Both the position numbers and the translations under genes were made by a program. The notes beneath the pieces were generated by a model. The model was not told where the DNA came from. It was given only the letters and a program-made list of their open reading frames with translations, and made no database searches. A DNA stretch of 64,000 nt, taken from NCBI RefSeq assembly GCF_018219155.1, contig NZ_CP056123.1, positions 620,001 through 684,000 of the forward strand, given 5' to 3'. Below are positions 19,119 through 31,167 of this stretch, piece after piece (position 1 is the first letter of the stretch; each line of letters starts with the position of its first letter). The DNA is from Moritella sp. 24 (GTDB lineage: Bacteria > Pseudomonadota > Gammaproteobacteria > Enterobacterales > Moritellaceae).

Positions 19119-19508
19119 ATGAAGAAACAAGCTGGCGTTACGTTAGTTGAATTAAGTGCTGTTGTCGTTATATCTTCTATATTGGGTGCGATGGCTGTTC
19201 CTCGATTTATTGATCTTGCTGATGCCGCATTAGATGTCAGTGTCGTTAATATTGCGCGGGGTATTGAAAGCGCAAGCGCCTTAAATTATGCGGCTAGTTT
19301 TATCTCTAGATCGGGACTATCGACAGATGAGGTAGTCACTATTGATAATTGTGATGATGCAGGTAGTTTGTTAACTGGTTCGTCATTACCACTTGGCTAC
19401 AGCGTTACGCCAATGGATATTGCTAGTAGTATGGCTGTAACCTGTACGATAAAGCATATAGATTCTGCTAAAAGTATGACATTTATTATGCAAGGAACAT
19501 CACTGTGA
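19119..19508 (+). CDS. Type IV prepilin-like protein
   Basis: A 129-residue prepilin-like protein. MKKQAG is the leader, followed by VTLVELSAVVVISSILGAMA with Glu at +5. The first mature residue is V rather than the usual F. PRFIDLADAALD follows in the MSHA/type II minor pilin manner. Two Cys (in IDNCDDAG and AVTCTIKH) could form a disulfide. It is far from other pilus genes and about 9.5 kb from the tandem MSHA-like pilins. Start by GGATGG. A small lipoprotein gene follows. Confidence 0.75.
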   Translation: MKKQAGVTLVELSAVVVISSILGAMAVPRFIDLADAALDVSVVNIARGIESASALNYAASFISRSGLSTDEVVTIDNCDDAGSLLTGSSLPLGYSVTPMDIASSMAVTCTIKHIDSAKSMTFIMQGTSL

Positions 19509-19545
19509 ACCAATATTAATACAGAGATAATTGCAGGAGCATACA

Positions 19546-19806
19546 ATGTTTTTTAGGAATAGTTTATACATCTTATTATTAGCGACGATCACGGCATGTA
19601 GCCATTCTGAACCAGAGCCCATCGGAGGCGATCGAGATGAACATGGATGCTTGCCAGCTGCGGGGTATTTATGGTGTGAGCGAACCCAAACCTGTGAACG
19701 TTCATGGGAACTTGCTGATGCTGCAAAAATTGAACATACCGAAGCCGAAGTAAAGGCGTATTGTGAGATCATTGATAGTGATCTATTTATCGATGATGAA
19801 GAATGA
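19546..19806 (+). CDS. Small lipoprotein with a C-GYxWC-C-WE motif
   Basis: An 86-residue secreted protein. The N-terminal hydrophobic stretch ends in ITAC, an acceptable lipobox. The body holds GCLPAAGYLWCERTQTCERS, a compact three-Cys module that recurs in small bacterial secreted proteins, but I cannot name the family with confidence. The rest is acidic. ATG 19546 is chosen over TTG 19531 because AGGAG sits six bases before it. It follows the prepilin gene by 37 bases, so co-transcription is likely. Confidence 0.65.
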   Translation: MFFRNSLYILLLATITACSHSEPEPIGGDRDEHGCLPAAGYLWCERTQTCERSWELADAAKIEHTEAEVKAYCEIIDSDLFIDDEE

Positions 19807-19869: not shown

Positions 19870-19888
19870 GCCAATGAAAACCATTATC
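19870..19888 (-). promoter_or_regulatory. Fur-box-like site upstream of the metal-uptake gene array
   Basis: On the minus strand GATAATGGTTTTCATTGGC matches the 19-bp Fur consensus GATAATGATAATCATTATC at 14 positions. It lies 53 bases before the PepSY gene. No Zur-type palindrome was seen. Control by Fur is inference. Confidence 0.45.
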
Positions 19889-19940
19889 AATTACATTGCT
19901 TGTACTTTAATCCCATAAACCAAGCAGTGTTATTACGATC

Positions 19941-20645
19941 ATGTCTTCTCTTAGTCAACCCTTTCCCCAGACACCTACAAGATCGAAACACCAAAAAATA
20001 AAATCAAAAAACAAAACGTTTTTGAAAAACAAGCAAGTGCAATTATGGGCACGTCGTCTGCATATCTATATTTCGATGGCGCTGTTGCTGGTGGTGCTAT
20101 TTTTTTCAATCACGGGTATTACGCTAAACCGTCCAAGTCTATTTGTTAGCAGCCAGCCTGATATTCAAGAAACCATTCTGACCTTACCACAAGTCTTATT
20201 TAGTGACGCCAATGGCAATGTTGCTGTAGATAAAGTAGGCATTGTCAATTACCTGACCGAACACGCCAAACTTTCTGGTCAACCTTCTGCATTAGACGTG
20301 TTTACTGAAGTTGAAGACGGTGAATTAATCGAAGGTGAGATCGCCATGGACTACAAAGGTCCGGGTTACAACGTGGCTGTATTTATCGACATGACTACGA
20401 CTGAAGCGGTGATTGAGAAAACCGATTACGGTGTTATCGCAGTATTAAATGATCTGCATAAAGGACGTAACAGTGGTGATGTATGGAAGCTATTTATCGA
20501 TATCACGGCACTGTTGATGGTGTTCTTTGTATTAACCGGTGTGTGTTTATTGGTGCCGAAAAAGAAAACCTTTGCAACCTCATTAAAATGGACCTTGTTT
20601 GGTTCGCTCGTTACTTTGGCTATTTTTGTCGTAGCCGTCCCTTAA
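19941..20645 (+). CDS. PepSY-associated TM-helix (PepSY_TM) family protein
   Basis: A 234-residue inner-membrane protein. A basic N-terminal tail precedes a first membrane helix (residues ~38-58, RRLHIYISMALLLVVLFFS, FSITGITLNRP). A periplasmic PepSY-like region follows (~65-165). Two more helices lie near 175-200 and 210-232. PepSY_TM proteins often sit with siderophore or metal uptake genes and some act as ferric-siderophore reductases. The HxG/His residues HIYIS and DLHKGRNSG fit that family. First gene of the metal array; only 9 bases before DUF2271. Confidence 0.82.
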   Translation: MSSLSQPFPQTPTRSKHQKIKSKNKTFLKNKQVQLWARRLHIYISMALLLVVLFFSITGITLNRPSLFVSSQPDIQETILTLPQVLFSDANGNVAVDKVGIVNYLTEHAKLSGQPSALDVFTEVEDGELIEGEIAMDYKGPGYNVAVFIDMTTTEAVIEKTDYGVIAVLNDLHKGRNSGDVWKLFIDITALLMVFFVLTGVCLLVPKKKTFATSLKWTLFGSLVTLAIFVVAVP

Positions 20646-20654
20646 GGATATAGT

Positions 20655-21224
20655 ATGACTTTGTTATTTAAACGTTTTAGTCAGTGCATTGCACCATCTA
20701 TTGCATTATCTATTGCATTATCTATTGCATTATTAAGCGGCCTGCTCATTCCGACTTTTTCGGCAAGCGCGGCACCGATCCCTGCGAACGCTGAACTGGC
20801 TGTTGAATTTAGTTTACCGAAGATTGATACCACTATGTATGCGCGCCCTTATGTCGCGATATGGATCGAGAACTCAAAGCGTAAATCAGTACGTACTGTC
20901 GAATTGTGGGTTGGTAAAGATGAATGGCTAAAGGACTTACGTAGCTGGTGGCGAAAAGTGGGTCGTTATGATCGCGCTTTAGTTGACGGCGTGACATCAG
21001 CAACACGACCAGCAGGTGATTATCGTTTCACTTGGGATGGTTTAGATAATGATGGCAACCGCGTTGAAGCGGGTAATTATACATTTTATGTTGAAGTGGT
21101 ACGTGAACATGGTGGGCGTAATTATATCCGCCAAAAAATGACGTTAGGCGATAAGCCATTTAGTCACAGCATTGCGCCGACAGAAGAAACTGGCGATATC
21201 CGCATCAACTACCTAATTAAATAA
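20655..21224 (+). CDS. Exported DUF2271 protein
   Basis: A 189-residue secreted protein. The signal peptide is unusual: it contains SIALSIALSIAL, coded by three exact 12-bp repeats at 20697-20732. The mature part fits DUF2271: PYVAIWIENSKRKSVRTVELWVG, a WLKDLRSWWRKVGR segment, PAGDYRFTWDGLDNDGNRV and AGNYTFYVEVVREHGG, likely an Ig-like or FlgD-like beta sandwich. DUF2271 genes commonly lie beside PepSY_TM and DUF4198 genes. AAGGATATAGT precedes the ATG. Exact role unknown. Confidence 0.85.
   Translation: MTLLFKRFSQCIAPSIALSIALSIALLSGLLIPTFSASAAPIPANAELAVEFSLPKIDTTMYARPYVAIWIENSKRKSVRTVELWVGKDEWLKDLRSWWRKVGRYDRALVDGVTSATRPAGDYRFTWDGLDNDGNRVEAGNYTFYVEVVREHGGRNYIRQKMTLGDKPFSHSIAPTEETGDIRINYLIK
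20697..20732 (+). repeat. Three tandem copies of a 12-bp repeat in a signal-peptide coding region
   Basis: TCTATTGCATTA occurs three times in a row without change and encodes SIAL each time. The unit is a multiple of three, so copy-number change would alter signal-peptide length without a frameshift. Confidence 0.95.
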
Positions 21225-21240
21225 TATAGCGAGAAAGATA

Positions 21241-22107
21241 ATGTCTACAGTTCAGTCTTTTAAAGAAAAGAATTTAAAAATAAGCAAATTTAAAGTATTA
21301 GGTTTAGCCTGCACGGTTATCGCTGGATTAGCGGCAACAACAACGGCAAACGCACATCCACGTTGGGTATTACCATCACACTTCACTGTATCGAAAGAAG
21401 GTGGTGACTGGTTAACGTTCGACGTAACTGCATCACACGGAACATTCGTATTTGATAAACCTGCGGGCAGCGAGTTTGCACAAGTGACAATGCCAGATGG
21501 TCGTAAAGAACGTCCTAACTTTGTGATCCGCGGTAAGCGTCGTTCTATCTTTGACTTCTACTTTGAGGAAGAAGGTACGCATAAAGTGGCTATCAACAAT
21601 GTACCGTCTTACTACACAGCGTATAAAGCGGGTCGTCGTGACACAATTAAACGTGTAAAAGCGAACAAAGCTGAACGCGCAAATTTGATTCCTGAAAAAT
21701 CACGCGACGTTAGCACGCAATTAAGCTACACCCGTGCAGAAAGTTATGTAACGGTTGGTATGCCAACGGAAAAAGCATTAGAAATCGAAGGTAAATACCT
21801 AGAAATGCGTCCACTGACACACCCGTCAGACATTGTTGAAGGCGAAGAGGTAAGCTTCCAGTTCTTCTTTAACGGCGAACCACAAGCGGGCGTTACTGCT
21901 GATATTACCCGTGAAGGTACGTTATACCGCAATCATCAAGAGCAAATTGATGTTGTAAGTGATAAAGACGGTAAAGTGACATTCACACCAAATGTGGCTG
22001 GCCGTTACTTGATGAAAGCCAACTACAAAGGTGAGTTGAAAAATGATCCAATGGCTGACAAAGCAAGTGTAAACGTCCACTTCACGTTTGAGGCGTTACT
22101 ACAGTAG
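21241..22107 (+). CDS. Periplasmic DUF4198 protein
   Basis: A 288-residue exported protein. The signal peptide ends at TANA, giving a mature N-terminus HPRWVLPSHFTV. DUF4198 proteins characteristically begin with a histidine just after the signal peptide and have Ig-like domains; here FDVTASHGTFVF, a RRSIFDFYFEEEG strand, and a C-terminal CNA-B/Ig-type segment (VTADITREGTLYRN, DGKVTFTPNVAGRYLMKANY). An exposed N-terminal His suggests metal binding, which is inference. GAGAAAG precedes the ATG. A strong terminator lies just after this gene. Confidence 0.85.
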   Translation: MSTVQSFKEKNLKISKFKVLGLACTVIAGLAATTTANAHPRWVLPSHFTVSKEGGDWLTFDVTASHGTFVFDKPAGSEFAQVTMPDGRKERPNFVIRGKRRSIFDFYFEEEGTHKVAINNVPSYYTAYKAGRRDTIKRVKANKAERANLIPEKSRDVSTQLSYTRAESYVTVGMPTEKALEIEGKYLEMRPLTHPSDIVEGEEVSFQFFFNGEPQAGVTADITREGTLYRNHQEQIDVVSDKDGKVTFTPNVAGRYLMKANYKGELKNDPMADKASVNVHFTFEALLQ

Positions 22108-22137
22108 TACTGACTATTGTTAATTCCTTATCTTACT

Positions 22138-22174
22138 AGCCTGTAATGAGACCTGAGCTGATTACAGGCTTTTT
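22138..22174 (+). terminator. Intrinsic terminator inside the metal array
   Basis: AGCCTGTAAT and ATTACAGGCT form a perfect 10-bp stem around a 13-base loop, followed by TTTTT. It separates the PepSY-DUF2271-DUF4198 genes from the transporter genes. Either the array is two transcription units or read-through is partial. Confidence 0.87.
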
Positions 22175-22233
22175 CGCTCTATTTATTCACGACTTATCTA
22201 TTTTGTATGAGTCTATTTCGTATTGAGGTTTTC

Positions 22234-22563
22234 ATGACAAAAATGGCAATCAAACCGACCCTACTCGCGCTCTCATTAATCACTGGTTTATTCTCAGGTA
22301 CCGCGCGTGCTCATTTTCCATTAATGACCTGCTGGTTCGAGTCTGACAACGTAGTTTGCGAAGCTGGTTACAGTGATGCTAGTACCGCTGTAGATTACGC
22401 TGTAAACATGTATGACTACGACGATAACTTAATTGCAAAAGGCATGACAGATAAGCGCTCAATAGCTGAATTTAGCAAACCGGATACTGATTTTTATTTA
22501 GTATTCGATGCGGGCCATGAAAACCCAGTTGAAGTTGACGTTGTTGAGATTAGTGAAAAATGA
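22234..22563 (+). CDS. Small periplasmic protein of the metal-uptake array
   Basis: A 109-residue exported protein. The signal peptide ends in ARA, giving a mature N-terminus HFPLMTCWFESDNVVCEAGY. Like the DUF4198 protein it starts with His after processing, and it has two Cys that could form a disulfide. The body is acidic (VNMYDYDDN, DAGHENPVEVDVVE). No family recognised with confidence. ATG 22234 is chosen over 22207 because TGAGG lies seven bases before it and the signal peptide is more typical. Its stop overlaps the next gene by four bases. Confidence 0.75.
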   Translation: MTKMAIKPTLLALSLITGLFSGTARAHFPLMTCWFESDNVVCEAGYSDASTAVDYAVNMYDYDDNLIAKGMTDKRSIAEFSKPDTDFYLVFDAGHENPVEVDVVEISEK

Positions 22564-23177
22564 TCAGTCAATCAGTCCATCCAGATGATGGCGGTCGTGA
22601 AGGTAAGTGGGTGGCGTTAATCATCATCACCATTCTTGTTACTGCCGCGCTACTTTTACCTTATCACCAAACCGCATCGAGCGAGCAAGAACTGGCGAGT
22701 CATCAAGTATCAATTAAAGATTTACCTTCGGTTGAGCTGGCTATGATCGCTGAATTACGTTTAGCGCACGAAGAGATCCGCAATATTCATCAAGACAGTC
22801 TTGAACTAGAAAATGTCGATGTTTGGCCCGATATGGCTGAATTAGATGAGTTGTGGTTAGCGCCATTTATCATTGATAAAAGCTGGGAACGTAAAGGTAA
22901 GCATGCGTGGCGTAAAGTTGCTCCGGCTCTATATCAAGGTATACCAGCATTAACAACGGGTAGCGCTGCTGTGTTATTGAATAGCCAAGACACACGACCT
23001 GATGTGTGGTTAGCACTTGATATGCCGGTACCAACCCCGGTGGTAGAAAACGATCTTATAAATGAGTCTGGATCACTTGATACGACAGCGCTGATTAATG
23101 CGGGCTGGAAACAAGTGGTATTTGCTGGTGATGCGTCGTCAGAAAATACAGAACACGCAGATAACGACAGCCATTAA
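22560..23177 (+). CDS. Membrane-anchored protein of the metal-uptake array (possibly DUF6162)
   Basis: A 205-residue protein with one N-terminal membrane helix (WVALIIITILVTAALLLPY, residues ~17-35) and a periplasmic remainder. It contains ELRLAHEEIRNI, LDELWLAPFIIDKSWERKGKH and ALYQGIP, and ends in a His/Asp-rich tail (ENTEHADNDSH). I associate it with DUF6162 from context and composition, but am not certain. ATGA overlap with the gene before it indicates translational coupling. It is followed after 18 bases by the first substrate-binding protein gene. Confidence 0.72.
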   Translation: MISQSVHPDDGGREGKWVALIIITILVTAALLLPYHQTASSEQELASHQVSIKDLPSVELAMIAELRLAHEEIRNIHQDSLELENVDVWPDMAELDELWLAPFIIDKSWERKGKHAWRKVAPALYQGIPALTTGSAAVLLNSQDTRPDVWLALDMPVPTPVVENDLINESGSLDTTALINAGWKQVVFAGDASSENTEHADNDSH

Positions 23178-23195
23178 GGCTCGACGGTAGTGATA

Positions 23196-24236
23196 ATGAG
23201 AGTTGTAACAATGAAAACTGTAATGATGAAAAGAAGCAGAATGAATAACGTAATCAGTCACATGTGTAAAAAACTAATCACTGCATGCACGACTGCGGCT
23301 GTATTGTTAATGAGCTTGCAAGTTCAAGCGGCGGATAAGTTGACTATTGGTATTACGCTGCAACCTTACTACAGCTATGTGAAAGCGGTTGTGGGTGATA
23401 AGGCGGATGTATTACCGCTGGTTGATGAAGGCTTTAACCCGCATAACTACCAGCCACAACCGAATGATTTACGCCGTCTTAAACAGATGGATGTGATCGT
23501 GGTGAATGCGATTGGCCATGATGATTTTGCTTTAAAAGTGATTAAAGCAGCAAACCGTGATGATCTTATTGTGATAAAAGCCAATAAAGATGTGCCGCTA
23601 TTACCTGCTATTGGTCAATCTGTTGGTGAAGGCGCTGTAAACCCGCATACCTTTGTTGGCCTATCAACGACAATTCAGAAGGTATATACCATCGCCACTG
23701 AGTTATCGAAAATTGACCCTGACAATGCCCGTACTTATCGTAAAAATGCCCGTAAATACGCAACAGAATTCCGTAAAATGAAACGCCAAGCGATGTTAAC
23801 GTTAGGGGATTTAGATACCTCGGGCATGCTGGTGGCTACAACACATAATGCTTACGGTTATATCTTGCAAGAGTTTGGTGTAGACGTGGCGGCTGTGATT
23901 GAACCTGCTCACGGTGTTGAACCAAGTGCGAGCCAGTTACAAGAAACTATTGAGAAGATCCGCGCGTCAAAGATTGATGTGTTGTTCTACGAATTAAATA
24001 TGCCAAGTCGTTATGTTGAAACGATTGAAGCGGCAACAGGTGTACAACTTTACCGTTTCTCACACATGACACATGGTGCATATGAAGAAAGCAAAGTAGC
24101 GGTTGAAATGAAAAATAACCTGACAACATTAGTAGAAGCAATGAAGTTTGCGGCTAAACGCTCGCTTGCTGACGCAGATGAATCAACGACTAACGCTGCA
24201 CTTAATACAGCTACAAATATCAAGCAAGGAAGTTAA
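23196..24236 (+). CDS. Metal ABC transporter substrate-binding protein (ZnuA/cluster A-I)
   Basis: A ~346-residue periplasmic protein of the cluster A-I (Zn/Mn/Fe) class. A long basic N-region precedes the signal peptide hydrophobic core, cleaved near VQA-ADK. The expected metal histidines are in FNPHNY, NPHTFVGL and THNAYGY. GVEPSASQLQETIEKI and KIDVLFYELNMPSRYVE complete the fold. No His-rich loop like that of E. coli ZnuA is present, so Zn, Mn or Fe are all possible. The start is uncertain (GTG 23190, ATG 23196, ATG 23211 or later ATGs). GTG of the ATPase gene follows 2 bases after the stop. Confidence 0.88.
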   Translation: MRVVTMKTVMMKRSRMNNVISHMCKKLITACTTAAVLLMSLQVQAADKLTIGITLQPYYSYVKAVVGDKADVLPLVDEGFNPHNYQPQPNDLRRLKQMDVIVVNAIGHDDFALKVIKAANRDDLIVIKANKDVPLLPAIGQSVGEGAVNPHTFVGLSTTIQKVYTIATELSKIDPDNARTYRKNARKYATEFRKMKRQAMLTLGDLDTSGMLVATTHNAYGYILQEFGVDVAAVIEPAHGVEPSASQLQETIEKIRASKIDVLFYELNMPSRYVETIEAATGVQLYRFSHMTHGAYEESKVAVEMKNNLTTLVEAMKFAAKRSLADADESTTNAALNTATNIKQGS

Positions 24237-24238
24237 TC

Positions 24239-24979
24239 GTGGGTCCTGCAATACGTTTACAAAATGTTGGTTTGAAATATGGTGATAATGTCATTTTAGA
24301 AGACATTTCACATTATCTAGAAGCGGGTCAGTGCCATGTGATCATGGGGCCAAATGGTGGTGGTAAAACCTCATTGTTGCGCTCTATTTTAGGGCTGACT
24401 CCTTTCACTGGTAATATTGATATTCAATGGCCTAAGCATAAAGGCAATATCGGTTATGTACCGCAGAAAGCCACGTTTGAGTCGAGTTTACCGTTTACGG
24501 TGATGGATTTTATTTTGCTAAATCAGAGCCGTAATCCGTTATTTTGGCGAAAGCGTAAAAAAGAACAAGATCACGCACTGGCACAGCTCGATCGCGTCGG
24601 TATGGCAAATCGTACTGACCGTCGTATGGGGCAGTTATCAGGTGGTGAGCAGCAGCGTGTGCTATTCGCTCAGTCATTATTAGATAACCCAGATCTGCTC
24701 GTACTTGATGAACCAACAACGGGCATGGATGAGCAAGGTGTTCGTTACCTTGAGTCGTTGATCCACGAGTTAGTACGTGAAAATAAAACCATCTTAGCTG
24801 TGCATCATGACGTGAGTGCTGTGCGCCGTTTAGATGGTCAAGTACATGTGGTGAATCGTCAGTTAGTTGATTCTGGCGCTGTGTCTGATGTGTTAAGAGA
24901 CGATAAGATCGAGCGTTTATTCAATCATTATACCGGCGGTAATATCTCTGACATTAATTCTGCTCAAGGAGTTAAATAA
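24239..24979 (+). CDS. Metal ABC transporter ATP-binding protein (ZnuC-like)
   Basis: A 246-residue ABC ATPase. Walker A is GPNGGGKTSLL (about 38-48), the Q-loop is in YVPQKATFESSLPF, the signature is LSGGEQQRV near 130, Walker B is LLVLDEPTTGMD, and the switch His is in LAVHHDVSAV. Similarity is to ZnuC/MntB/YfeB type proteins. It starts with GTG, with AAGGA eight bases upstream. The stop overlaps the permease ATG by one base. Confidence 0.92.
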   Translation: MGPAIRLQNVGLKYGDNVILEDISHYLEAGQCHVIMGPNGGGKTSLLRSILGLTPFTGNIDIQWPKHKGNIGYVPQKATFESSLPFTVMDFILLNQSRNPLFWRKRKKEQDHALAQLDRVGMANRTDRRMGQLSGGEQQRVLFAQSLLDNPDLLVLDEPTTGMDEQGVRYLESLIHELVRENKTILAVHHDVSAVRRLDGQVHVVNRQLVDSGAVSDVLRDDKIERLFNHYTGGNISDINSAQGVK

Positions 24980-25854
24980 TGGATACTATTCGTCATTGGG
25001 CACAACTGGGTGTTGATGCTGGTTGGTTGAGTGAGAGCTTCTCTTATTCGTTTATGGTGAATGCGGTTGTCGCAGCGTTATTACTTGGCCCCTTACTTGG
25101 TGGGTTAGGTACGTTAGTGATTGCTAAGCGTTTAGCTTTCTTTTCCGAAGCGGTAGGTCATGCGGCATTAACGGGTATTGCCTTAGGCGTATTATTAGGC
25201 GAACCAGCAGAAAACCCGATTATTGGCTTATTCAGTTTTTGTATGATCTTCGCTTTACTGCTGCACTTTGTTCGTAATCGTACAAACGTGCCTTACGATA
25301 CCTTAGTTGGCGTATTCCTTGCCTTTGCATTAGCAGTCGGCGCAGCATTACTCATGTATGTGGCCCGTAAGATTAACATTCATATGTTAGAGAATGTGTT
25401 GTTCGGATCGATCTTAACGATCACCGATTATGACTTATTGATCTTAGCTGTTACTTGCGGGGTTATTTTATTGGTCTTGATACCGACCTTTAACCGTATT
25501 TTATTAACCTGTATCAGCCCTGACATTGCCAAAGTACGTGGTTACGCGACTAACTTTTATGATTATCTTTTTGTCATGATGATCACGCTAGTGACGATCG
25601 CGTCGGTGAAAATTGTCGGTGCGGTATTAGTGGGCGCATTGCTATTGATCCCCGGTGCGACAGCCCGTTTACTCACAAAAAATATGGGTAGCTTTGTACT
25701 TATGTCTGCGTTATTAGCCACGATAAGCTGCTTAGTCGGTACGGTTTTACCAATGGAATTAAAACTGCCTATTCCTTCTGGTGCCGCAATTATTATTGTG
25801 TCGACCAGCTTCTTCTTAACGGCAACTTGCTACCGTATTGTACGCAAAGGATAA
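24979..25854 (+). CDS. Metal ABC transporter permease (ZnuB-like)
   Basis: A 291-residue membrane protein of the ABC-3 family with about 8 helices. Motifs include LLGPLLGGLGTLVIAKRLAF, FFSEAVGHAALTGIALGVLLG, and SVKIVGAVLVGALLLIPGATA, all typical of ZnuB/MntC/YfeC permeases. It follows the ATPase with a one-base overlap and an AAGGAG Shine-Dalgarno. Exported as a homodimer-forming inner-membrane pore with the ATPase. Confidence 0.92.
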   Translation: MDTIRHWAQLGVDAGWLSESFSYSFMVNAVVAALLLGPLLGGLGTLVIAKRLAFFSEAVGHAALTGIALGVLLGEPAENPIIGLFSFCMIFALLLHFVRNRTNVPYDTLVGVFLAFALAVGAALLMYVARKINIHMLENVLFGSILTITDYDLLILAVTCGVILLVLIPTFNRILLTCISPDIAKVRGYATNFYDYLFVMMITLVTIASVKIVGAVLVGALLLIPGATARLLTKNMGSFVLMSALLATISCLVGTVLPMELKLPIPSGAAIIIVSTSFFLTATCYRIVRKG

Positions 25855-25860
25855 CTGATT

Positions 25861-26745
25861 ATGACTTCTCGATTATTAACCGTCAGCACCGCTGTATTGT
25901 TGCTAACATCAATGCTTGGTTTTAGCCAAAAGGTAAGTGCCGCTGATATTCTTACAGCGACACCCGTAACTTATATGTTAGCGACAGAGTTAACTAAAGG
26001 TACAGATATTACCACGCAGTATTTGCCTCCAAAGCGTTACGGTTTATCGCGTTTACCGAACTGGTTTAGTTCGAAAGGGGCGGCATTAACAGAAAAAGCG
26101 GCAGTTGATGCACAAGTGAGTATTACCCTAGGTGCTGTTTGGTCGCAAGACCCATTATTTGTCCATGCGCGTAAAGGCAATATTCGCATGATTGAAGTGG
26201 ATGCGTCACAAGCTATTTCACCTCGTGCTCAAGGGGTTGCAGCACTGCGTTTAGAGGATGGTAGTATCTCGCCTTATACTTGGCTTAATCCAACTAATTT
26301 AACCCGTATGACTGCGATTGTGAGTCAGGATTTACAACAAGTATGGCCACAAGAAGCGGCTACAATTGCCAGTAATCAACAAGCTTTGATGATGTCGGTA
26401 CGCCATTTGATTAATCAACAACAAGCTATGTTGTTAGATAATGAAATTGATTCTGTTGTGTTGTTATCAACGGAGTTAGAAGATTTTGCGTCGGGTAACC
26501 AGTTATTTGTGGTTGAACGTTTAACCAAACCTGAATTGGAATGGACTGCAAAAGATAAACAGCAGTTTGTTGAACTGTTAACTGAAGATGATAGTTTATG
26601 GGTGCTGACATCGAAACGAGCGAGCAAGCAACTTAAAGCATTAGTGCCTAATCCAGCTCGTATTTTAACGATTGATAGTATCGACCGTTGGGGCCGAGGG
26701 ATTAAGGCTGACAAGCCATTACAACGCTGGCAGTTAACGCTCTAG
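25861..26745 (+). CDS. Second substrate-binding protein, metal site degenerate
   Basis: A 294-residue protein with a signal peptide (cleaved near VSA-ADI). Its fold follows the ZnuA class, but the three histidine positions are changed: the first region reads SRLPNWFSSKG with no His (~64-73), the second is SPYTWLNP with Tyr 139 in place of His, and the third is LSTELEDF with Glu 205 where THNAY stands in the partner. The other features, such as the central helix and the C-terminal lobe, are kept. It ends the array, 6 bases after the permease. It may have lost metal binding or have a new ligand or accessory role. Confidence 0.78.
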   Translation: MTSRLLTVSTAVLLLTSMLGFSQKVSAADILTATPVTYMLATELTKGTDITTQYLPPKRYGLSRLPNWFSSKGAALTEKAAVDAQVSITLGAVWSQDPLFVHARKGNIRMIEVDASQAISPRAQGVAALRLEDGSISPYTWLNPTNLTRMTAIVSQDLQQVWPQEAATIASNQQALMMSVRHLINQQQAMLLDNEIDSVVLLSTELEDFASGNQLFVVERLTKPELEWTAKDKQQFVELLTEDDSLWVLTSKRASKQLKALVPNPARILTIDSIDRWGRGIKADKPLQRWQLTL

Positions 26746-26783
26746 GGTTTTAATATCTCGTTACTGATATGGTTTTAGAAAAG

Positions 26784-26837
26784 AAACGCCCCGTATAATC
26801 AGACTGTAATTAAGTCGATCATACGGGGCGTTTTGTT
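26784..26837 (+). terminator. Intrinsic terminator of the metal-transporter genes
   Basis: AAACGCCCCGTAT and ATACGGGGCGTTT form a perfect 13-bp stem around a loop of about 24 bases, followed by a T-rich tail. The left arm begins with AAA, giving some activity towards the convergent chemoreceptor gene. Confidence 0.9.
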
Positions 26838-29628: not shown

Positions 29629-29931
29629 ATGATGAACAAGCGAGTCTCTCGATATTTTTTGACGGGTTTTTATCTGTGCATTATGTCATTTTCAGCGGCA
29701 TCTGCAGATCTAGATAAACTGCAAAACATGTGTATGGCATGTCATGGCGATAACGGTGTTAATCCTTATCAGTCAATTCCCGATCTGCGAGGCCAGAGCT
29801 TAGTTTATTTGAGAAATCAGATGGCAGCTTTCAAAAATGGCGAACGCCAAGATATAACGATGAGCAAAGTTGCACAGTTACTTTCTGATGATGACATCAA
29901 TAAGCTCACCAAATACTTCAGTGAACAGTAA
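29629..29931 (+). CDS. Periplasmic c-type cytochrome
   Basis: A 100-residue class I cytochrome c. The signal peptide ends near ASA-DLD. The heme motif is CMACH, and the distal Met is probably in ITMSKVA. KFxEx-like ending helix SDDDINKLTKYFSEQ is typical of c4/c553-type domains. It starts the four-gene sulfite-oxidation-like operon and likely passes electrons from the molybdoenzyme. ATG 29629 or 29632 may be used. Confidence 0.88.
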   Translation: MMNKRVSRYFLTGFYLCIMSFSAASADLDKLQNMCMACHGDNGVNPYQSIPDLRGQSLVYLRNQMAAFKNGERQDITMSKVAQLLSDDDINKLTKYFSEQ

Positions 29932-29943
29932 GGTTTATAAGCA

Positions 29944-31167
29944 ATGAAACGTAGAGATTTTATTAAAGGCACATTTGCTGTCGGCGCGAGTGCTATGTTA
30001 CCGGTTAATTGGGTATTTGCTGGCAATTTACCAAAAGGCCTATCGCCACTGGAAGTGGATTCGCTAACATGGTCGTCGGTAACTGACTTACCTGAGTATT
30101 ATAAGGTGCTGAACAGTAACCCGCTAAATGCTTATGTCGCTGATCATATGTTAGATCCAACGGTGACTCCTGCGAATGTACCGTTTGTACGTTGGAATGG
30201 TTTATTACCTGACTTTAAAGCGATGGACCCAAAAATTTGGGAATTCACTGTTGATGGTGAATCTTGTGAGCAGCCAAAAACATATACGATTGCAGATTTG
30301 AAAAGCAAATTTAAACATCATACTTATGCGTTAACGCTAGAGTGTGGTGGTAACAGCCGTAAGAACTTCTACCCGTCAGCGAAAGGTAATCAGTGGACTG
30401 ACTCTGCTGTTTATTGTTCTGAGTGGACAGGGGTATTGGTGAGTGATGTATTAAAAGATTGTGGTATTAAAGACGATGCAGTCTATACCGGCCATCACAG
30501 TATTGATCGCCATTTAAGTGGTAAAGGTGATGCGATTTCGCGTGGTGTACCAATTCAATATGCATTAGAAGATAATGCATTGATTGCTTGGTCGATGAAC
30601 GGTGACGAAATTCCTTATATGCACGGTTATCCGTTACGTATCGTATTTGGTGGTCGTCCTGCGTCTATCTCATCAAAAGCAGCAACGGGTATCAGTATTC
30701 GTAATGTTGAACATGATGGTAAGAAAATGGAATCACCTGCTTATCGTGTCCCTAAATACCCAGTTGCACCGGGCGAGAAAGTGCCATTAGATGATTTTGA
30801 AATCATTGAACACATGATCGTTAAATCATTAATCACGCATCCACAAACAGGCAGTGAATTTAAATTAGGTCAGAAGACAGCTGTTCGTGGTCATGCTTGG
30901 GCGGGTCCACTTGAGGTTGTTAAGATGGAAGTCAGCTACGACTATGGCACGACTTGGCATGTTGCGGATTTGAAAAAACAGCCAAATAAAATGGCGTGGC
31001 AAGATTGGTCAATCGAACTTGATTTACCACAACACGGCTATTACGAAATATGGTCAAAAGCGACCGATAGCGAAGGTAAGACGCAACCTGTAGTACAACC
31101 ACAGTGGAATCCAAAAGGTTACATGTTTAACGGTTGTCACCGTATTGCGGTTCGGGTGCAAAAATGA
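29944..31167 (+). CDS. Sulfite oxidase family molybdoenzyme (SorA/SoxC-like), Tat-exported
   Basis: A 407-residue periplasmic enzyme. The Tat signal has MKRRDFIKGTFAVGASAMLP (RRxFxK). The molybdenum-ligating Cys lies in LTLECGGNSRKNFYP, about residue 138. Downstream there are GDEIPYMHGYPLRIVFGG (Mo-pterin domain) and the C-terminal dimerisation domain (VRGHAWAGPLEVVKMEVSYD, KATDSEGKTQP). Members oxidise sulfite to sulfate and pass electrons to cytochrome c. That fits the flanking cytochromes. Sulfite is the likeliest but unproven substrate; methionine-sulfoxide-type or thiosulfate-linked roles exist in the family. Confidence 0.88.
   Translation: MKRRDFIKGTFAVGASAMLPVNWVFAGNLPKGLSPLEVDSLTWSSVTDLPEYYKVLNSNPLNAYVADHMLDPTVTPANVPFVRWNGLLPDFKAMDPKIWEFTVDGESCEQPKTYTIADLKSKFKHHTYALTLECGGNSRKNFYPSAKGNQWTDSAVYCSEWTGVLVSDVLKDCGIKDDAVYTGHHSIDRHLSGKGDAISRGVPIQYALEDNALIAWSMNGDEIPYMHGYPLRIVFGGRPASISSKAATGISIRNVEHDGKKMESPAYRVPKYPVAPGEKVPLDDFEIIEHMIVKSLITHPQTGSEFKLGQKTAVRGHAWAGPLEVVKMEVSYDYGTTWHVADLKKQPNKMAWQDWSIELDLPQHGYYEIWSKATDSEGKTQPVVQPQWNPKGYMFNGCHRIAVRVQK

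Follow-up and report, generated by a model that had tools for sequence, protein, structure and literature searches.

A nine-gene operon of Moritella sp. 24 is probably the inner-membrane half of a reductive ferric-siderophore uptake pathway

What is taken up, and in what form, by an operon that sets PepSY, DUF2271 and DUF4198 proteins before a ZnuABC-like transporter? The question is raised by nine plus-strand open reading frames (ORFs) lying in series at positions 19941–26745 of a 64,000-nucleotide stretch of the 4.73-Mb genome of Moritella sp. 24, hereafter the window (C1:620001–684000). An earlier note had described this array and proposed that it represents an undescribed system for periplasmic capture, possible reduction and ABC import of a metal. 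All nine ORFs exist in the ORF list of the window and their family assignments agree with that description. The gaps between them are −4 to +16 bases, with a sole exception of 99 bases ahead of gene 4, and the operon extends from a Fur-box-like site at its start to a strong terminator at its end. Comparison of its sequences with those of other genomes and with described systems leads us to consider it likely that the operon encodes the periplasmic and inner-membrane half of a ferric-siderophore pathway of the PeuA/TonB2 type: iron would be released in the periplasm by reduction and enter the cell as Fe(II).

Named genomes were scanned with a profile of the gene 6 product, the first of two putative substrate-binding proteins (SBP1 and SBP2). 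At least 520 relatives were found, the best 80 of which were kept; as they were ranked by gene 6 similarity, these 80 loci lean towards close kin. The complete set of nine genes, in unchanged order, is found in 76 of the 80, which indicates that the array is beyond chance. The locus L077 is incomplete because a contig end cuts it, while L094, L095 and L097 gave no DUF6162 match at E 1e-3 and have an ORF of 169–200 amino acids (aa) in that place together with all the other genes. The hosts are Moritella, Photobacterium, Vibrio, Aliivibrio, Psychromonas, Ferrimonas, Motilimonas and Oceanospirillales, and among the matches listed the nearest named relatives by gene 6 are Moritella. SBP2 is present in 9 of 10 other Moritella genomes. 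In 274 genomes sampled across the class, an SBP2 query found the own genome and two weak matches only, and DUF6162 was found in the own genome alone. An FpvC sequence query matched, at E 1e-40, the own genome and one other among 369 of the class; in the order of Neptunomonas it matched 12 of 244 genomes. Because matches in these wide samples are few, the system is patchy across the class despite the at least 520 relatives in the named collection. DUF6162 also scored above its cut-off in the control genome of Caulobacter vibrioides.

On sequence and profile comparison, genes 4–9 are homologous to FpvJ-K-C-D-E-F, which belong to the system by which Pseudomonas obtains iron from pyoverdine. Gene 6 (23190–24236, +; Pfam ZnuA 4.8e-50), whose listed GTG start is perhaps not the true start, with Met codons further in, encodes SBP1, a predicted metal-binding periplasmic protein. 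SBP1 shares 49% identity with the chain of PDB 6r3z, which is labelled 'probable adhesion protein' in the PDB and which we take to be P. aeruginosa FpvC. This identity is supported by two genomes, probably of Pseudomonas, that carry a protein 86–87% identical to the 6r3z chain inside an Fpv-like cluster with the order PepSY_TM protein, FpvH-like, FpvJ-like, DUF6162, SBP, ATPase, permease and second SBP. The 6r3z family contains the closest solved relatives of SBP1 (9e-87, versus 1.5e-25 for Zn/Mn proteins). In PDB 6r6k, six His of 6r3z are replaced by Gly, and all six His are kept in 81 of 81 SBP1 rows; here and below, rows are automatically picked ORFs, and some loci have no row. Gene 7 (24239–24979, +; Pfam 3.1e-27) and gene 8 (24979–25854, +; Pfam 1.7e-54, 185.5 bits) encode the ABC ATPase and ABC-3 permease homologous to FpvD and FpvE. 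Gene 9 (25861–26745, +) encodes SBP2, a degenerate second binding protein whose ZnuA likeness (2.3e-6) falls below the cut-off and which lacks a conserved His (present at any one column in less than half of its 81 rows). It matches the FpvF-position protein at E 5.7e-30 in locus L124 and 1.4e-30 in a second genome, and is probably the siderophore-binding subunit. The window operon thus has the order FpvC-FpvD-FpvE-FpvF with two binding proteins per ABC transporter, and its four proteins are, in order, 49.0%, 38.7%, 53.0% and 28.8% identical to those of L124.

The two small genes ahead of SBP1 fit the same scheme. Gene 4 (22207–22563, +) has no Pfam family above cut-off and resembles NCBIfam NikL at 2.2e-9 (37.5 bits against a 100-bit cut-off), and its profile matches the FpvJ-position proteins of six clusters bearing this core at E 1.8e-30. 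These proteins and gene 4 have in common a predicted mature start AH[FYN]P with a nearby Cys (AHxP...C) and a DAG motif. The gene 4 model is all-beta beyond the signal helix (pLDDT 87); the predicted structures of genes 1 and 4 were used for secondary structure only. Gene 5 (22560–23177, +; Pfam DUF6162 1.7e-14) is 31% identical to the FpvK-position protein (3.5e-23), and the L123 protein is itself a DUF6162 protein at 2.7e-44. From its sequence, gene 5 has one N-terminal membrane anchor; the His-rich end that the earlier note had described is modest (...EHADNDSH). The same note's mature N-terminal His of genes 3 and 4 is borne out by its conservation, with 'AHP' in 79 of 79 DUF4198 rows and 'AHxP' in 73 of 73 gene 4 rows, the cleavage site being a predicted one.

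The FpvJ-K-C-D-E-F core is found in the same order, with a TonB-dependent receptor nearby, on annotated plasmids of Azospirillum and Cereibacter, and in Azospirillum MacB-type and efflux adaptor genes also adjoin it. On the Cereibacter azotoformans conjugative plasmid (L109, 5365–12507) it stands with PepSY, DUF3649 and DUF3325 behind a sigma factor, FecR and the TonB receptor, a further reductase arrangement. In Vibrio sp. THAF190c, plasmid b (L107, 3768–12388) has an FpvJKCDEF-type cluster whose PepSY_TM protein is 585 aa long and whose TonB receptor is divergent; the other large replicon of this strain has the nine-gene type. A possible hybrid locus is L125 (G313 C89), where FpvJ-, FpvC- and FpvF-like ORFs lie beside an ABC ATPase-like ORF and large ORFs.

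Genes 1–3 correspond by family to a flavin-type periplasmic reductase set known from the literature and occupy the place that FpvG-FpvH have in Pseudomonas. Gene 1 (19941–20645, +; Pfam 2.1e-55) encodes a 234-aa PepSY_TM_like_2 membrane protein, probably a transmembrane haem reductase, whose model has three long helices with a mainly strand domain between them (pLDDT 85, pTM 0.65). Its His41 and His173 are present in 79 of 79 rows and may ligate haem, by analogy with FoxB as described in passages of PMC11334425. Gene 2 (20655–21224, +; Pfam 1.5e-45) encodes an exported DUF2271 protein, a likely covalent-FMN carrier with the motif DGVTSAT, in which D111, A116 and T117 are invariant in 80 of 80 rows (D-x-x-[TS]-x-A-T). 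Gene 3 (21241–22107, +; Pfam 9.3e-48) encodes the exported DUF4198 protein. The three occur together in 79 of the 80 loci, the remaining one being L077 with its contig end. Passages of Meheust et al. 2021 (PMC8238504) describe PepSY-like proteins that occur with DUF2271 and secreted DUF4198 and are tied to iron reduction, a DUF2271 protein of another species that is flavinylated by its ApbE, and apbE as a frequent and not a constant member of such clusters. Other literature passages report DUF2271/DUF4198 genes to be Fur-linked or iron-responsive in Alteromonas and Caulobacter.

The different front genes of the Moritella and Pseudomonas operons could reflect either divergence or replacement. 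FpvG of L124 matches PF03929 over positions 2–295 of 295 (1.9e-64). Gene 1 belongs to PF16357 and matches PF03929 only in part (best stretch 85–163 of 295, above cut-off), so that a nearly full-length PF03929 protein of the FpvG type is absent from the reductase position of the nine window genes. An FpvH profile built from four proteins and compared with seven of the nine window gene families (ATPase and permease excluded) reached a best probability of 2.3%. With no match in these comparisons, FpvH as a divergent copy of a window gene was rejected in favor of replacement. From the FpvH result and the full PF03929 protein of L124, the reductase module appears to have been exchanged and not merely to have diverged. 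In a tree of 39 SBP1 rows, the large-PepSY clusters L107 and L126 fall together with L125 on a branch with six DUF2271-type clusters (99/97). This suggestive placement fits a module swap, in a tree that has long branches and a midpoint root.

The regulatory signals point to iron. The site TGAAAACCATTATCA at 19875–19889 (+) begins 66 bases 5' of the gene 1 start and has 2 mismatches to the Fur consensus TGATAATNATTATCA; such sites number 3 in the 64-kb window versus 0.71 expected, and the single site is weak evidence by itself. This consensus is the 15-base form (a 19-base form is quoted in a passage of PMC6957404), and the 300 bases upstream of each operon were scanned with a best attainable score of 14. 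A score of at least 11 was reached upstream of 70 of the 79 operons, as against 68 of 698 other-ORF regions in the same loci and 105 of 1580 shuffles. The 79 operons are that of the window and those of 78 loci, the two loci for which no PepSY ORF had been picked being omitted; they are related and hence are not independent cases. No excess was found in these loci for a simple 15-base Zur-type consensus, taken in what we assume to be its usual form, with a score of at least 10 in 16 of 78 versus 124 of 698 regions and a score of 11 in 3 of 78 versus 21 of 698. The operon is closed by an intrinsic terminator (26783–26834, +) with an outer stem of 14 pairs and then a T tract, the 65-base fold having −30.4 kcal/mol; a general hairpin scan with loops of 3–8 bases had missed it. 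Directly 5' of the operon, at 19119–19806, a pilin-like ORF (129 aa) and a short lipoprotein-like ORF, judged by eye, were excluded from it.

In the loci of relatives, with a flank of 10 kb only and many loci ending before a receptor could be reached, the nine genes are often preceded by the components of a TonB2-type system. Of the 80 loci, 44 have TonB and TPR genes upstream, 41 ExbD, 38 ExbB, 37 a large ExbB-type protein and 36 DUF3450, while 23 have a receptor at least 35% identical to that of the own genome. The own genome carries the same gene kinds at C1:1716000–1733000 (L148), with a response regulator, kinase, receptor, DUF3450, large ExbB, ExbB, ExbD, TonB and TPR; a Fur-box-like site with one mismatch to the consensus ends 61 bases before the receptor. 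Receptors 56–64% identical to this one directly precede the nine genes, in the same orientation, in Psychromonas, Motilimonas, a Vibrio and another relative; divergent receptors in Ferrimonas are 42–44% identical to it. All the parts come together in V. campbellii (L153), where one 17-kb, one-strand stretch contains the regulator, kinase and receptor (68%, 48% and 59% identical to the own-genome cluster), six TonB2-type genes, about 1.2 kb and all nine genes; its receptor half agrees with the published peuRS-peuA-tonB2 locus. The linked TonB receptor that the earlier note had in view is therefore found in relatives, whereas in the own genome it lies unlinked, about 1.07 Mb from the operon, and the four named Moritella loci likewise have no receptor linked to the operon.

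The names peu, ttp and tonB2 are given here only by likeness to the own cluster and by gene order in papers. According to passages of Tanabe et al. 2014 (PMC4141801), V. parahaemolyticus peuRS and peuA with VPA0151-0156 (TonB2) form iron-repressed operons, PeuA serves enterobactin use at alkaline pH, and V. campbellii is among the species with peuRSA orthologues; VPA0157 does not occur in the main text of that paper. In a passage of the transcriptome study PMC3895804, vpa0159 appears as COG5266, 'orthologous to several nickel transporters', among the genes that changed 5-fold or more in DMEM and upon exsA expression. By its position, vpa0159 would be the DUF4198 gene.

Based on the FpvG-H-J-C-F model set out in passages of PMC6954188, the most economical reading of the operon is the same mechanism with another reductase. 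A TonB-dependent receptor, energized by the TonB2-type system, would bring the ferric siderophore into the periplasm, where SBP2 and the FpvJ-like protein may hold and present it. The PepSY_TM_like_2 cytochrome would pass electrons from the inner membrane to flavinylated DUF2271, which would reduce Fe(III) to Fe(II), and DUF4198 and FpvJ could help to pass the metal on through their N-terminal His. Fe(II) would then be caught by the His site of the FpvC-like SBP1 and imported by the ATPase and permease, an arrangement in which the siderophore need not pass the inner membrane. The electron path, the flavinylation, the Fe(II) binding, the roles of FpvJ and DUF4198, the receptor served and the identity of the siderophore are what we infer in this scheme; what the sequences themselves show is the genes with their order, homology and conserved residues, the Fur-box-like site and the linkage in relatives. 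Taken together, the FpvJKCDEF homology, the PepSY/DUF2271/DUF4198 set, the conserved Fur-box-like site and the linkage to receptor and TonB2 genes in relatives support the capture, reduction and ABC import suggested by the earlier note, and the metal that it had left open is very probably iron from siderophores.

Several observations weigh against this interpretation. A tblastn search of the 80 loci with the three own-genome ApbE as queries (E 1e-4) detected no apbE, and the three apbE of the own genome lie beside NQR genes or two DUF3570 genes. Flavin loading of DUF2271 would hence have to be in trans. In addition, the flavinylation motif reads TSAT in the window, and of the 80 rows 71 have Ser before the A, 8 have Gly and 1 has Ala, versus a published [S/T]GA[S/T]. 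None of the receptor and TonB2-type partners was found in 23 of the 80 loci, of which six have less than 4 kb of upstream sequence and two (L072 and L097) have a receptor of another type. The own genome encodes six receptors, none tied to the operon by linkage, so the pairing of receptor and operon is drawn from relatives only. Linked receptors, checked with Pfam, resemble FhuA/FoxA, RhtA, CfrA/CirA and haem types in NCBIfam, with the specific families below curated cut-offs; because receptor type varies among species, no single siderophore is implied by these likenesses. Other siderophore routes are also possible, as six strong FecCD-type permeases are encoded elsewhere in the own genome, and a passage of PMC12366790 points to vctPDGC and fhuCDB for catechol siderophore import in V. 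alginolyticus. A search of the own genome for IucA/IucC-type siderophore synthetases, which did not extend to nonribosomal peptide synthetase pathways, gave 0 matches.

The two DUF3570-ApbE clusters of the own genome are separate, at C1:1470000–1482000 (L154, 3803–6863) and C1:2837000–2849000 (L155, 3952–9400). Both contain thioredoxin-like genes, one of them also has DsbD, and both match the published DUF3570 flavinylation type.

Could the operon serve iron without a siderophore? Weakly chelated Fe(III) would then be reduced and taken up as Fe(II), and SBP2 would bind small chelates. Such a route would suit the own genome and the four Moritella loci without an operon-linked receptor, and VciB, a PepSY-like protein without flavinylation partners, is reported to reduce iron in a passage of PMC8238504. 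We nevertheless think it unlikely, as an FpvF-like second binding protein and FpvJ are retained and as receptor and/or TonB2-type genes adjoin the operon in many relatives, the V. campbellii stretch having the full set. Still less probable, and in our view very improbable, is import of the intact ferric siderophore by the ABC transporter with PepSY/DUF2271 serving something else. FpvF does bind the siderophore in Pseudomonas (PMC6954188, in part), and the gene 8 permease passes the FecCD cut-off (32.1 bits versus 26.5), but its match to the ABC-3 metal ion type is far stronger, and in the literature model given in the same passages FpvDE carries the freed iron.

The family names in Pfam and NCBIfam (ZnuA, NikL, DUF4198) would instead suggest an importer of zinc, manganese or nickel/cobalt, in keeping with the nickel-transporter orthology ascribed to vpa0159. 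Import of Zn, Mn or Ni was rejected as the principal explanation on the relatives of SBP1, on the enrichment of Fur-like and not Zur-like sites, and on the presence of two stronger ZnuA-family proteins elsewhere in the genome. Moreover, the reductase set is of no evident use for Zn, and the window proteins stay below the curated NCBIfam cut-offs of AztC (128 of 350 bits) and ZnuA (53 of 268 bits). We therefore regard this explanation as very improbable, and favor reductive release of siderophore iron.

The claim that the system is undescribed does not hold for its kind, which is known from fpvGHJK-CDEF of Pseudomonas and from the PepSY-like flavinylation clusters. Both halves, the Fpv import core and the flavin-type reductase set, are of known kinds, and their combination is apparently new: in the open-access literature, most subscription papers being outside the search, we found no paper describing the nine-gene combination or the inner-membrane partner of the peuA-tonB2 locus. 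About as likely as not, in our view, is a wider proposal, namely that Vibrionaceae and marine Oceanospirillales possess a widespread, receptor-independent periplasmic iron-stripping machine. It would consist of an FpvJKCDEF core with interchangeable receptors and reductase modules (FpvG-FpvH, large PepSY, or PepSY_TM_like_2/DUF2271), and would supply the inner-membrane route still missing from the PeuA/TonB2 pathway, with covalent flavin as the last electron step. If our reading of the operon is right, many marine species would also have a conserved periplasmic reductive route like that of pyoverdine in genes now named after zinc or nickel transport, and iron delivered by PeuA-type receptors would have a concrete candidate for cell entry. 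The Fpv import core would be shown to combine with a flavin-type reductase, and the unexplained roles of FpvJ, FpvK, DUF4198 and DUF2271 would become testable in a single operon.

Elsewhere in the window, at 29629–31167, a small cytochrome c-like ORF is followed by a 407-aa molybdopterin-oxidoreductase-like ORF, presumably resembling a sulfite dehydrogenase pair.

Compared with known systems, the operon shares with ZnuABC and AztABC zinc transporters its protein superfamilies, and differs from them in scores below their cut-offs, in a Fur-like instead of a Zur-like site and in the added reductase and FpvJ/K/F genes. With the PepSY-like flavinylation clusters, as far as described in passages of PMC8238504, it has in common the PF16357 PepSY-like protein, DUF2271, secreted DUF4198 and the iron link; unlike them, its cluster yielded no apbE, stands in one operon with a two-binding-protein ABC importer, and carries the variant TSAT motif. 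The peuRS-peuA-tonB2 locus, in the passages of PMC4141801, has the gene kinds and the order of the own-genome cluster, and in V. campbellii the nine genes trail the TonB2-type genes by about 1.2 kb; those passages cover VPA0148-VPA0156 and not VPA0157, and in the own genome the receptor cluster and the nine genes are separated. Like fpvGHJK-fpvCDEF of P. aeruginosa, the operon has FpvJ/K/C/D/E/F homologues in the same order, two binding proteins per transporter and a PepSY-type reductase at the front. Where Pseudomonas has FpvG (about 400 aa) and FpvH, however, the window has PepSY_TM_like_2, DUF2271 and DUF4198, and its relatives are linked to PeuA/TonB2-type genes.

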